From: a virus
Reading direction: 5' to 3' (one strand)
Length of the DNA: 64,000 nt
IMG/VR virus record: IMGVR_UViG_3300044680_000280
Span: 248,001 to 312,000 of that record
Below, piece by piece: positions 5,299 through 51,683 of the stretch (position 1 is its first letter; the number at the start of each line of letters is the position of its first letter). The position numbers were made by a program, and so were the translations under genes. The notes beneath the pieces were generated by a model, which made no database searches, was not told the origin of the DNA, and worked only from the letters and a program-made list of their open reading frames with translations.

Positions 5299-5469
5299 GA
5301 TGTCCCACCTCTATAAGGTCGCTACCTGGACGTTCCGCTCCTTCCCGTGAGGGAAAGAGAAGGCCAGCCTGACTTGGGGATGTGTTGCTACGAGTGAGCA
5401 TTCGCGTCTCACTGTAGGACCGTAACTCCGGTACGTCAAGCTCTTACCTTTTAGGTGAGGTGGGACATC
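5299..5469 (+). ncRNA. Candidate structured non-coding RNA A (about 171 nt)
   Basis: A perfect 13-bp stem (5299-5311 with 5457-5469, GATGTCCCACCTC and its complement) closes a 145-nt interior holding at least five hairpins: AGGT/ACCT at 5316-5327; TTCCC-GTGA-GGGAA at 5342-5355, whose GTGA loop is a GNRA tetraloop only if the + strand is transcribed; CTAC-AGTGAG/CTCACT-GTAG at 5388-5417; ACCG/CGGT at 5419-5432; CTTACCT/AGGTGAG at 5443-5459. No open reading frame uses it. A separate promoter element follows at 5499. It matches no RNA family I can name (not RNase P, tmRNA or 6S by motif). Confidence 0.7.
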
Positions 5470-23981: not shown

Positions 23982-24010
23982 TTGAACCGTTCGAGGGCTT
24001 GCGCTGTACT
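23982..24010 (+). promoter_or_regulatory. TTGAAC-class promoter
   Basis: TTGAAC, 17 nt, TGTACT; 18 nt to the ATG at 24029 with AGGAG between. Confidence 0.65.
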
Positions 24011-36119: not shown

Positions 36120-36141
36120 GTCAGGGGTAGAAGTTCAAGGT

Positions 36142-36501: not shown

Positions 36502-36926
36502 TGTTCGTTCTCCGTTGGGGTTGGATTCGTGGAAGGGGCTCCGCATGTGCATGAATCGCAAATCTCGCACACATAGAGCCCGTGATCGTTACAGGAAATG
36601 GGAATGGCACACGTTAGGGCGAGGCGCCGCTGGCAGCCGATCGCGTGCTGTCGAGCCTTTTCGCAGACGCACTGAATGAGCTGGCAGTCACAGTCCGCAA
36701 CTCGACCGACGGCCATGTACTCGTCCAATGACATTTTGCCAAGAACCTTGTAGACACCGTTTTCATCGGGGATATCTGAAAAAAGTATAACCTCGGTACC
36801 GTCATGCGACGCCCCGTTTATGGCCCGAATCAACTCCTGGTACGGTCCCTCTTCGGGTATGGATCCCTCTTCGGGTATGGATCCCTCTTCGGGTATGGAT
36901 CCCTCTTCGGGTATGGGGTCAGACAT
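36498..36926 (-). CDS. Cys-rich protein with N-terminal tandem repeats, 142 aa
   Basis: Residues 4-28 are four IPEEG-S/P repeats encoded by near-perfect 18-bp direct repeats. The C-terminal half has C-D-C-Q, C-V-C, C-Q-R and a cluster C-E-I-C-D-S-C-T-C, so one or two zinc sites are likely. The repeat array could slip and vary in length between isolates. Confidence 0.65.
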   Translation of the reverse strand: MSDPIPEEGSIPEEGSIPEEGSIPEEGPYQELIRAINGASHDGTEVILFSDIPDENGVYKVLGKMSLDEYMAVGRVADCDCQLIQCVCEKARQHAIGCQRRLALTCAIPISCNDHGLYVCEICDSCTCGAPSTNPTPTENEQ

Positions 36927-47658: not shown

Positions 47659-48123
47659 TCATTCGTCCTCTTCGGGACAGGACGAATCCCCGATGGCCGC
47701 CGCCGTGATCTCCCTCACTCGTTTCTGCTCCCGTTTCAAAAACTCCTCAACCGTAATGCCCAGCTCCCCCGCCCGCTTCTCCGCCGTCTCCCGTACCGAT
47801 GGCCATTTCACACGGTCCCGAAGAGGACCCTCCTTTTCCTTGGGAACCACGACGATTCCCCGTCGGAGCGTCTCCTCCGCGGTCACCATCCATCGCAATT
47901 CGCGAACGATGGATCGCTGAACTCGCTCCGACGGTTCCACCTTCCCCTCTATCCACCGAGTAACCGCAAACGGAGCCACTTCCAAGAGCTCCGCCATTTG
48001 TTCCACGCTTACCCCGCTGAGCGATATCCCGTCCCGAACAAGGTCGGCAAAGCTCCCCTCGTCCTCGAATAGGAACAGCCTCGCCCTCGTCAGGTACGAA
48101 CCCAAATCGCCCAGTACGTCCAT
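47659..48123 (-). CDS. HTH (Cro/CI-type) DNA-binding protein, 154 aa
   Basis: Residues about 25-80: S-V-E-Q-M-A-E-L-L-E-V-A-P-F-A-V-T-R-W-I-E-G is a helix-turn-helix of the XRE type. C-terminal helix with E-E-F-L-K-R-E. Likely repressor or activator. The ATG at 48123 sits 7 nt after TATCTT of a promoter. Confidence 0.75.
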   Translation of the reverse strand: MDVLGDLGSYLTRARLFLFEDEGSFADLVRDGISLSGVSVEQMAELLEVAPFAVTRWIEGKVEPSERVQRSIVRELRWMVTAEETLRRGIVVVPKEKEGPLRDRVKWPSVRETAEKRAGELGITVEEFLKREQKRVREITAAAIGDSSCPEEDE

Positions 48124-48831: not shown

Positions 48832-49067
48832 CCCCTCTCCCACTTCCCCTCATCATTCCACCTTCCAGACCCAAGAAGGAACGACGGCGACCCAGGCTCC
48901 CCCTCAAATGGGGCCCTCGAGTTCCCCTCGGGTCGGGACAACCCGTGCTTTCTCAGCCGTCGACCCCGACGGGCATTCTCAATGTCCCACATCACAAGAG
49001 CCACAAAGACCGCCGCGCCCCACAGCACCATCGAAACCGCGCCCCGTACCCGTTTCCAAATGCCCAT
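48828..49067 (-). CDS. Small membrane protein, 79 aa
   Basis: A hydrophobic segment (residues 10-26, A-V-S-M-V-L-W-G-A-A-V-F-V-A-L-V-M) after a basic start, then an Arg/Gly-rich soluble tail. Start set by the promoter element 9 nt away. Confidence 0.55.
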   Translation of the reverse strand: MGIWKRVRGAVSMVLWGAAVFVALVMWDIENARRGRRLRKHGLSRPEGNSRAPFEGEPGSPSFLLGSGRWNDEGKWERG

Positions 49068-49076
49068 GGGAAAGGT

Positions 49077-49083
49077 TACACCG
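49077..49083 (-). promoter_or_regulatory. GGTGTA-type promoter element
   Basis: CGGTGTAACCTTTCCC on the - strand, 9 nt to the ATG at 49067. Confidence 0.65.
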
Positions 49084-49113
49084 AAGACGAACAGCGGGCG
49101 GGGGCTCGATGAT

Positions 49114-49150
49114 GTCGACGAACATCGAACCCAGCTCGATGTTCGTCGAC
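49114..49150. repeat. 15-bp perfect inverted repeat plus third copy
   Basis: GTCGACGAACATCGA and its complement around a 7-nt loop, with a further direct copy of TCGACGAACATCGAACCCA at 49168-49186. Possible operator or structured element. Confidence 0.6.
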
Positions 49151-49188
49151 GCAGTTCGATGAGTGGCTCGACGAACATCGAACCCATG

Positions 49189-49202
49189 CCCGCGAAGCAG
49201 GG
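49189..49202 (+). repeat. Interspersed hairpin repeat, copy 1
   Basis: CCCGCGAAGCAGGG, a small imperfect hairpin found in about seven copies at 49.2-53.7 kb. Confidence 0.6.
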
Positions 49203-49204
49203 CG

Positions 49205-49440
49205 GTGGGGGTTTCCCCTTTTGGTCAAAAAGTATACCGACCTAAAAAATTCTGTTATTTTTCAAGGGCTTACCCAAAAAGGAATGACGTATGGGGTTAT
49301 CCGTATTACCATCTAACCGACCCGGGACCATACGTATACTCAATATGCCCCTTTCCCGAGATCTGTGAGGGCGAGTAAGATAATGGAGCGGTTCTACGCT
49401 CACTGTAACTAGACCGCCTCGATCGGTATACCCGACCCCG
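49205..49440. other. AT-rich gene-free stretch
   Basis: Locally AT-rich (around 49228-49330), with several GTATAC-type palindromes and no protein-like frame. Could be an operator or replication region; I see no coding evidence. Confidence 0.4.
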
Positions 49441-49454
49441 CCCTGCTTCGCGGG
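49441..49454 (-). repeat. Interspersed hairpin repeat, copy 2
   Basis: Reverse orientation (CCCTGCTTCGCGGG). Confidence 0.6.
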
Positions 49455-49463
49455 CCCGGGTCG

Positions 49464-49865
49464 ATGATCCCCACTGAACAGACTTACCATACAGCACTGA
49501 ACTACCTACATCGCGCCATCTGTTCAGCACTGGTCACGTCAAGGGCTGAACAGAAGCCCTCACTGAACGCTGAGCTCAATCAGGTGTGGGCGAAAATCAC
49601 ATGTACCCACCTCTGGGCGATTCGAAGAGCGAGCTCCAAGATGGGACCCAAAAGGGGCGGCGGGGGTCGCACTACGGTTCAGTTCGCTACACACGAACGA
49701 ACCTACACACCTACCTACGAACACGGGCGGGTCGTGTGTGTGGTGGGCGGCGCCCAGGTATATATACCAGTGTTCGTAGAGGGGGGAGCGGTGAAGGTAT
49801 ATGGGGAACAAACACAAGCCCGCGGAGCAGGGCCCGGTGTATGTGATTCTATGGGCAATAATTGA
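49464..49865 (+). CDS. Doubtful coding frame, 133 aa
   Basis: The first 60 residues look helical and plausible, but the second half runs through repeats and the frame overlaps the 49801 gene. The segment 49470-49575 also holds five CACTGAAC/CTGTTCAG elements, so it may be regulatory DNA. Confidence 0.3.
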   Translation: MIPTEQTYHTALNYLHRAICSALVTSRAEQKPSLNAELNQVWAKITCTHLWAIRRASSKMGPKRGGGGRTTVQFATHERTYTPTYEHGRVVCVVGGAQVYIPVFVEGGAVKVYGEQTQARGAGPGVCDSMGNN

Positions 49866-50115
49866 AGCTGGCCCTCTTGGGCTACCCCGCAAGTGGCGTA
49901 TGAGGTTGGGGTCGGACCACATCGTTCACCTCGAGTGGAGCCACGACCACATCACCTGGACGACCGTCCCTCGAGTGGCCCTCCCGACGACGTATGGAAC
50001 GGGCACCTACGTCACATGGGACCTCGTGGGGGACCTGATGCAAGAAGGGGTTCCCGGAGCGCCCGCTTCCATTGGGGAACAAGCACAAGCCCGCGAAGCT
50101 GGGCCCGGTGTCTGA
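49801..50115 (+). CDS. Protein of unknown function framed by repeats, about 104 aa
   Basis: The centre (H-I-V-H-L-E-W-S-H-D-H-I-T-W-T-T-V) is protein-like, as in small beta domains of phage proteins. Both ends of the frame are copies of the interspersed repeat (reading A-E-Q-G-P-V and A-R-E-A-G-P-G-V). The true start is unsure: 49801, 49843 (GTG) or 49900. Confidence 0.45.
   Translation: MGNKHKPAEQGPVYVILWAIIEAGPLGLPRKWRMRLGSDHIVHLEWSHDHITWTTVPRVALPTTYGTGTYVTWDLVGDLMQEGVPGAPASIGEQAQAREAGPGV
49819..49832 (+). repeat. Interspersed hairpin repeat, copy 3
   Basis: CCCGCGGAGCAGGG within a longer direct repeat of about 37 nt shared with copy 4; followed by CGGTGTA. Confidence 0.6.
50090..50103 (+). 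repeat. Interspersed hairpin repeat, copy 4
   Basis: CCCGCGAAGCTGGG; flanks AACAAGCACAAG and CCGGTGT match copy 3. Confidence 0.6.
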
Positions 50116-50144
50116 ACTGTTAACCGAGCCTGGGGTCAGAACCC

Positions 50145-50246
50145 CTAACGCCGCGCCGAGGATGCCCTCAGAGGGGCTTTGGGAGGACGCCTAGGCTTGG
50201 AGCCGTCCATATCGGGCGATGGGCTGTTGAGCCGGCTGATGTCCAT
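50145..50246 (-). CDS. Small basic proline-rich protein, 33 aa
   Basis: Directly after structured RNA E on the same strand, with AAGGAGAG 8 nt before the ATG. Basic and proline-rich (K-P-R-R-P-P-K-A-P). RNA E could be its regulatory leader. Confidence 0.45.
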   Translation of the reverse strand: MDISRLNSPSPDMDGSKPRRPPKAPLRASSARR

Positions 50247-50268
50247 CTCGGCTCTCCTTGCAGAAACG

Positions 50269-50392
50269 GTCAGTGAGCCCCGATTTAGGGTTGCGAGCCC
50301 TAGACCCACCCGAGGATACCTCCTGCGCTTCCCACGCGTAGGCACTTCAATGGTACCGGCCCTACCTCGGAAGCCCATCGGGGCTCACTGAC
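50269..50392 (-). ncRNA. Candidate structured RNA E (124 nt)
   Basis: A 16-bp perfect stem (50269-50284 with 50377-50392) encloses TAGGG/CCCTA (near 50286-50302), CCGAGG/CCTCGG and CCTGCGC/GCGTAGG. A TTGAAC-TTACTA promoter on the - strand predicts a start about 50392, exactly the 5' base of the stem. It precedes a ribosome binding site and a 33-aa frame, so it may be a cis-acting leader or an independent RNA. Confidence 0.7.
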
Positions 50393-50397
50393 ACAAG

Positions 50398-50426
50398 TAG
50401 TAAAGCGCCGGGAAGGCGGAGTTCAA
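50398..50426 (-). promoter_or_regulatory. TTGAAC-class promoter of RNA E
   Basis: TTGAAC, 17 nt, TTACTA; transcription expected from about 50392. Confidence 0.65.
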
Positions 50427-50453
50427 GTGGATGAGCTCAAGGTTTCGCTCTTT

Positions 50454-50642
50454 TTACTCGCCAGTGTCCTGTAGCTCCCACAACGGCTGTGTGTTCAGCA
50501 CGAGAGCCCGCACCGCCGCCGCGAGTGCGGTGACCGCGTCATTGAGGCGCCCGTTCTCGCATTCGCCCAGGTCCTTCTCCACCTGCTCCACCTGCTCGAG
50601 TATCCGTAGCCCGGCGACCGACAGCGTGTTTACCTTCGCCAT
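50454..50642 (-). CDS. Small helical protein, 62 aa
   Basis: Leucine/valine-rich helix throughout (L-R-I-L-E-Q-V-E-Q-V-E-K), possibly a coiled coil. GAAAGG precedes the ATG. Confidence 0.6.
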   Translation of the reverse strand: MAKVNTLSVAGLRILEQVEQVEKDLGECENGRLNDAVTALAAAVRALVLNTQPLWELQDTGE

Positions 50643-50670
50643 GTCTCGATTCCTTTCGTAGAAAAATCTC

Positions 50671-50832
50671 TCAGCTCATCCACCACTGAAGCAGGCGAGT
50701 CCACCAGCTCGGGAGATGGGCTTGCACGTGACTGCGCCAGGCATACTCCGCCAACTCGCACCGTACGATGAACTGTTTGTCGCAAATGGGGCAGCGCACG
50801 GCACCTCTGGGGAGGTCTACATCGAGCCCCAT
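50671..50832 (-). CDS. Small zinc-finger protein, 53 aa
   Basis: C-P-I-C-D-K-Q-F and later H-V-Q-A-H form a C2H2-like finger; W-rich end. Its ATG overlaps the upstream stop (TGATG), so it is coupled to the 50832 gene. Confidence 0.6.
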   Translation of the reverse strand: MGLDVDLPRGAVRCPICDKQFIVRCELAEYAWRSHVQAHLPSWWTRLLQWWMS

Positions 50833-51005
50833 CAGTGGCCACAGACCGTGCATTTGACGCGGTCGCTCGGGGAGCCGTTCCGATTGATCCGCTCCTCCGT
50901 GTGACCGCAGGCAAGGACGAACGTCCAATGGTTCGCGGGAACGGCACGACGGCTCCGACGACGAACGATCGTGGTCTCGACCTTGAAAGAGCTGATGACG
51001 TCCAT
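50832..51005 (-). CDS. Small zinc-binding protein, 57 aa
   Basis: A-C-G-H and C-T-V-C-G-H suggest a zinc site. Basic N-terminal half. Start lies 6 nt after TGTACT of a TTGAAC promoter. Confidence 0.6.
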   Translation of the reverse strand: MDVISSFKVETTIVRRRSRRAVPANHWTFVLACGHTEERINRNGSPSDRVKCTVCGH

Positions 51006-51481: not shown

Positions 51482-51592
51482 GTAAAGGTAACGTCACACC
51501 TTGAGATGACGAGACCTGATCAGTCGTATGGCGTAAAGGTAACGTCACACCTTGAGATGACGAGTCGTATGGCGTAAAGGTAACGTCACACC
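51482..51592 (+). repeat. Iteron-like direct repeats
   Basis: Three copies of GTAAAGGTAACGTCACACC (51482, 51533, 51574), the first two extended by TTGAGATGACGAG. No gene uses the region 51440-51695, which reads as protein-binding DNA. Confidence 0.65.
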
Positions 51593-51683
51593 CCTCTCGG
51601 CAGCCGTCGAAAGCTTCAGCCGAGAGGTCTCGATATGGCAGCTCAGAGCCTTCGTATCTGAGACTTGTAACGACTGATCAGGT
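51514..51683. repeat. 14-bp inverted repeat ACCTGATCAGTCGT
   Basis: Arms at 51514-51527 and 51670-51683 flank most of the iteron region. The 20-mer containing the second arm (51665-51684) also occurs exactly at 4060-4079 inside the sigma-like gene. Confidence 0.55.

Follow-up and report, generated by a model that had tools for sequence, protein, structure and literature searches.

We describe RNA E, a predicted minus-strand transcript of a jumbo phage, whose predicted first base, G50392, is also the first base of a perfect 16-bp stem that closes a 92-nt interior. With about even confidence, we regard it as a real, dedicated early unit, which would produce either a stable noncoding RNA or a passive leader, protected in both cases by its blunt, paired 5′ end. 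The window, i.e., the whole stretch of 64,000 nucleotides analysed here, spans 248001-312000 in a virus record of 406,734 bases (IMGVR_UViG_3300044680_000280; record G000), and positions are those of the window unless the record is named. As an early noncoding RNA, if it is one, RNA E would stand alone as an RNA-first product within a large and sharply defined early regulon of a jumbo phage, and would make a compact candidate for host takeover through RNA or for RNA stabilization. Its features, in the order of the predicted transcription, are:

50421-50426, minus strand: -35 box TTGAAC, one of 32 sites of its promoter class
50399-50404, minus strand: -10 box TTTACT of the class promoter, with a 16-nt spacer from the -35 box
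50392, minus strand: predicted +1 of transcription (G), where the stem begins, at the seventh base past the -10 box
50377-50392, minus strand: 5′ arm of the closing stem, GTCAGTGAGCCCCGAT, which pairs with the 3′ arm
50285-50376, minus strand: 92-nt interior, whose predicted hairpins do not exceed the chance level
50269-50284, minus strand: 3′ arm of the closing stem, ATCGGGGCTCACTGAC, with no T-run after the arm
50254-50259, minus strand: Shine-Dalgarno-like AAGGAG, 7 nt before an ATG, mostly accessible in the fold except for its last bases
50145-50246, minus strand: 33-aa frame MDISRLNSPSPDMDGSKPRRPPKAPLRASSARR from ATG 50246, codon log-odds of -5.1 bits
50086-50107, minus strand: GC-rich hairpin followed by a T-rich stretch, a possible terminator of a transcript of ~310 nt and a copy of a repeated hairpin

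Promoter class and transcription start

An earlier note on this DNA had proposed a TTGAAC-TTACTA promoter giving a 5′ end at about 50392, and this proposal is upheld, TTACTA being the TTTACT box shifted by one base. The promoter belongs to a class, TTGAAC-N16/17-[TC][GT]TA[CT]T, of which the phage record contains 32 sites, against 0.7 expected from shuffles, all of them confined to 272-406 kb of the record. An ATG or GTG is found at the seventh base after the -10 box in 14 of these 32 promoters, giving leaderless messages, and most of the non-leaderless ones have a ribosome-binding site from about the seventh base and a start codon 12-22 nt past the -10 box. Since about half of the class promoters are leaderless, +1 could be fixed at the seventh base after the -10 box, and this rule, calibrated on the 14 promoters with ATG or GTG there, puts the start of RNA E exactly on G50392, base 1 of the stem. 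The stem played no part in defining the class, and its coincidence with the calibrated +1 therefore constitutes independent support. A calibrated class with many leaderless genes allows base-precise 5′-end predictions in this phage. That transcription would be early is suggested by the resemblance of these promoters to σ-70-type promoters and by the accessory character of the genome arm in which they lie.

Other class promoters in the window are found, for example, at 23982, 24433, 25604, 51715, and 52177 on the plus strand and at 36138, 38855, 51040, and 51262 on the minus strand. The last of these, a sister promoter that lies 836 bp upstream and drives a 58-aa gene, also contains the sequence GGCGCTTTACTAC present at the RNA E promoter. 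A separate CGGTGTA-like motif (GGTGTA, usually preceded by C) occurs 9-12 nt upstream of start codons 159 times in the whole record, whereas its reversed form does so 23 times. The relatives G001, G002, and G004 show an enrichment as well (76 vs. 19, 16 vs. 1, and 14 vs. 3, respectively), and the motif resembles a second promoter or start signal, conserved and lacking a -35 box.

A perfect stem from the predicted first base

The arms GTCAGTGAGCCCCGAT and ATCGGGGCTCACTGAC form 16 of 16 possible Watson-Crick pairs around the 92-nt loop (50392-50377 with 50284-50269), and 15 of these pairs have a probability of at least 0.95 in the fold of a 313-nt transcript, in agreement with the perfect 16-bp stem that had been proposed to begin at the first transcribed base. 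It is the longest perfect inverted repeat of the window for loops of up to 200 nt. Two perfect stems of at least 16 bp with loops of 60-200 nt were observed in the genome, against 0.05 per shuffled genome, an expectation derived from order-2 shuffles in 10-kb blocks, which miss some features of real genomes. Only perfect stems were used, because a looser score allowing G-U pairs and mismatches fails to separate real from shuffled sequence. A chance inverted repeat beside a promoter would be in line with the single genome and the lack of conservation evidence, but is the least probable of the explanations considered here, given this expectation and the fact that the stem begins, to the base, at the independently calibrated +1.

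By the pairing of its 5′ end, RNA E is also a clear outlier among the 32 class transcripts. When the first 200 nt of each were folded, the mean unpaired probability of positions +1 to +8 was 0.01 for RNA E, 0.16 for the next transcript, and at least 0.40 for the others, and the longest perfect stem starting from +1 is 16 bp in RNA E versus at most 6 bp in the rest of the class.

Perfect inverted arms around an unremarkable interior could alternatively act in the DNA, either as two inverted protein-binding sites (an operator at +1 and +109) or as the borders of an invertible or mobile segment, and an arm lying exactly on +1 would be a natural repressor site. We consider this highly improbable, since only the two arms themselves match within three mismatches in the window, and exact matches of the hairpin core to other parts of the record reach no more than 12 nt, the level of random segments. 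A mobile element in particular was rejected: the flanks present no visible target-site duplications, and the arms are neither common to other elements nor like those of the remaining long inverted repeats in this genome.

The structural signal of RNA E lies in the closing stem. The 124-nt hairpin core exceeds its shuffles in stability (z -4.7), whereas the 92-nt interior alone shows no extra stability (z +0.12; 255/500 shuffles as stable), a result repeated in a second folding test (z +0.16, no excess structure), and the whole 282-nt stretch is likewise no more stable than shuffled sequence (z -0.68). Within 1 kcal/mol, several different inner folds are predicted. The three inner stems that had been drawn inside the closing one consequently lack statistical support, and we rejected inner hairpins as evidence because the interior folds no better than shuffled sequence. 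The interior contains AGGAGGT at 50324-50318, partly paired, which precedes GTG 50309. Such an unremarkable interior would be unusual for a highly structured noncoding RNA, and counts against the interpretation that we favor.

Coding capacity, leader function, and the 3′ end

Of the 32 class promoters, all but that of RNA E have a convincing gene start shortly past +1. At the others, an open reading frame starts within ~23 nt of the -10 box with a codon score of -0.0 to +0.44 bits per codon, while the only promoter-proximal frame at RNA E has -0.21 bits per codon, the sole clearly negative score. An ordinary protein gene, with the stem as a secondary feature, is accordingly an improbable product, whether read from ATG 50378 (+15; 77 aa), GTG 50309, or ATG 50246. 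ATG 50378 does lie at offset 20 past the -10 box, the usual start position of leadered class genes, and the frame holds, curiously, two internal ribosome-binding sites with their starts, as GTG 50309 sits after a perfect AGGAGG and ATG 50246 after the AAGGAG. However, the 77 codons score -16.4 bits, the worst value per codon of the 32 promoter-proximal frames, and ATG 50378 has no Shine-Dalgarno sequence, its leader and the first two bases of the start codon being inside the 16-bp stem. Searches with the 77-aa and 33-aa frames returned no protein relatives, and the neighboring proteins used as bait together with the 77-aa frame led to no relatives either.

The 33-aa frame, which is the tail of the 77-aa one, deserves separate consideration because a ribosome-binding site and a small basic frame had been noticed after the stem. 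The AAGGAG, the ATG (22 nt past the stem), and the frame are all present, and the spacing of the ribosome-binding site is that of a small-protein gene, but coding is doubtful: the codon usage is unlike that of other phage genes, with -5.1 bits against +6.0 (SD 4.6, lowest -4.7) for the first 33 codons of the 32 promoter-proximal open reading frames, and wrong frames average -4.8 bits over 33 codons, about where this frame lies. The 33-aa frame is probably not coding, or is at most a young gene.

A ribosome-binding site and ATG at this distance from the stem are what would be expected of a leader, which also weighs against our interpretation, and the region could be a structured 146-nt 5′ UTR that regulates in cis the translation of the 33-aa basic peptide in response to a ligand (as riboswitches do), a protein, or temperature. 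The AAGGAG with its 7-nt spacing and the ATG directly past the stem agree with such a function, as do the terminator-like hairpin past the stop codon of the frame and a GAGCCG after the Shine-Dalgarno sequence that is able to pair with CGGCTC inside the frame. On the other hand, the frame has the codon usage of noncoding sequence and no protein relative, the interior is not above chance, the stem does not overlap the Shine-Dalgarno sequence, and Rfam yields no riboswitch match even at an E-value of 10. With no overlap of the ribosome-binding site, an ordinary interior, and no aptamer match, a switch-type leader becomes less likely, and we hold cis-regulation of the peptide to be doubtful, if worth keeping in mind. 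The riboswitch-like leader suggested in the earlier note is not supported, no clear alternative pairing of the ribosome-binding site and no homologue having been found in addition to the above, and a processed or stand-alone RNA is likelier.

No strong terminator lies directly after the stem, which is a further point against the interpretation that we prefer. The first terminator-like hairpin of the scan is located past the 33-aa frame, so the primary transcript may be of ~310 nt. That hairpin is one of seven copies of a short hairpin, GCCC(T/A)GCTTCGCGGGC, found in both orientations and in different frames at window positions 49188, 49440, 49818, 50089, 53498, and 53717 and at position 390751 of the record; two of the copies have T-rich tails and could be terminators.

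Homology searches and comparison with known RNAs

No Rfam family matched the window at the gathering thresholds, and with Rfam 15 and E-values up to 10 there was no relevant family and no riboswitch in 49000-51000, the matches elsewhere in the record being only tRNAs and a tmRNA; ARAGORN found no tRNA or tmRNA genes in the window. The covariance models of 6S RNA, phage pRNA, YrlA, GOLLD, and ROOL did not match RNA E at E-values up to 10, and the Y RNA and retron msr-msd families likewise gave no Rfam match at these E-values. A blastn search of the region against phages and plasmids gave nothing meaningful, the stem pattern was absent from the IMG/VR and GTDB genomes, and a 16-mer of the interior had three matches in IMG/VR, all without the stem and attributable to chance. 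With no homologue in Rfam, phages, plasmids, or the IMG/VR and GTDB genomes, RNA E appears to be an orphan, one of a kind so far among the collections searched, and there is no sign of a conserved function, another point against our interpretation. The record itself contains no match to RVT_1 (reverse transcriptase), which a retron would be expected to have nearby, and no Ro60/TROVE or phage RNase III gene was found in it.

A helix formed between 5′ and 3′ parts closes 6S RNA, phi29 pRNA, Y RNA/YrlA, retron msr-msd, and GOLLD/ROOL, and a closing helix is likewise predicted in RNA E. The leaders of ompA, papA, and aprE have a stem at +1, upstream of the ribosome-binding site and with no unpaired 5′ nucleotides, and RNA E is like them in this respect, having by its calibrated +1 and predicted pairing a stem from the first base and fewer than 2-3 unpaired 5′ nucleotides; it is unlike them in having a 92-nt domain enclosed by a perfect duplex of 16 bp, and no convincing protein after it. 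One review presents these leaders as 5′-terminal stabilizing stem-loops and cites papers according to which 5′-terminal stems stabilize E. coli mRNAs (PMC3997798). The RppH of B. subtilis requires at least two unpaired 5′ nucleotides (PMC3997798). Long 5′ UTRs, of 26-491 nt, have been described in the jumbo phage AR9, with a suggested role in translation, but there the leaders occur on many genes and have shared motifs (PMC5312081), whereas in the phage studied here such a leader is found at one early promoter of 32, the others being leaderless or short-leadered.

We propose that RNA polymerase, most likely that of the host since no phage sigma factor with a Sigma70_r2 domain (σ-70 region 2) was found in the record, would start at G50392 from the TTGAAC/TTTACT early-class promoter, and that the first 16 nt would pair fully with nt 109-124, leaving a transcript without a single-stranded 5′ end. 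The blunt 5′-terminal stem may block 5′-end-dependent decay enzymes (of the RppH, RNase E, or RNase J type) and may turn the 92-nt interior into a closed domain. An RNA of presumably ~124-310 nt would then accumulate early as a stable noncoding RNA or as a passive stabilizing leader, the interior acting on its putative target by pairing or protein binding, with translation of the 33-aa frame optional and not required.

Similar stems and genomic context

RNA E is not the only long perfect stem of this genome, in which five of at least 14 bp with loops of 60-200 nt were found, against 0.27 expected from order-2 shuffles. The stem elements noted are:

5299-5469 of the window: perfect closing stem, part of the excess over shuffles
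47665-47828 of the window: one more such stem, which overlaps a probable gene
51514-51683 of the window: 14-bp closing stem, with GGAGG and ATG directly after it
377342-377504 of the record: perfect closing stem, part of the excess over shuffles
387205-387363 of the record: perfect closing stem, part of the excess over shuffles
298756-298946 of the relative G004: element of 191 nt, closed by a 15-bp stem and located just upstream of a start codon

The first, fourth, fifth, and sixth of these have perfect stems of 13-16 bp and loops of ~130-160 nt, and the third, fourth, and fifth are among the five of at least 14 bp. The five stems of the genome and the 191-nt element of the relative are grounds for suggesting, tentatively and as an unlikely reading, a phage-specific RNA class that would include RNA E and be defined by long, perfect closing stems whose sequence is not conserved; in early takeover, host RNA or protein would be the targets of the interiors. 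None of the other elements has sequence in common with RNA E, and in most of them the interior does not exceed chance, which leaves a common class as a possibility only; if true, it would be a class of closing-stem RNAs recognizable by architecture and not by sequence. In the element at 51514-51683, which is RNA-like too, three GTAAAGGTAACGTCACACC repeat units lie in and around the element, one inner hairpin recurs, with paired changes, at 313293-313331 of the record, and the 3′ arm has 19 nt in common with a stretch at 252060 of the record.

Relatives of an 836-aa protein of the phage (window 11111-13621; PHROG 2426) occur in 497 phage records, the majority from enterobacterial phages, with ~35% identity among the best, and the protein is found at 51-55% identity in four IMG/VR contigs. 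In a gene-by-gene comparison, the first 271 kb of the record are broadly common to these four contigs, and the 272-406 kb arm, home of RNA E, has almost no match to them; the RNA E region itself is absent from these four distant relatives. Approximately 38 tRNA genes and a tmRNA gene (tag ANDNGIPDLAIAA) lie at 219-246 kb of the record, and a perfect 18-bp tandem repeat, TCCCTCTTCGGGTATGGA, is found within an open frame at window 36846-36916. Finally, a common C-terminal tag like PKKSVWEHLLEDE ends twelve open frames of the phage (window 44166-47152, minus strand; record 18568, 307013, 324525, 324863, 327071, 329593, and 334634); the motif is C-terminal in 12 of its 14 occurrences, one similar protein occurs in the relative G004, and the tag is possibly a targeting or packaging signal.
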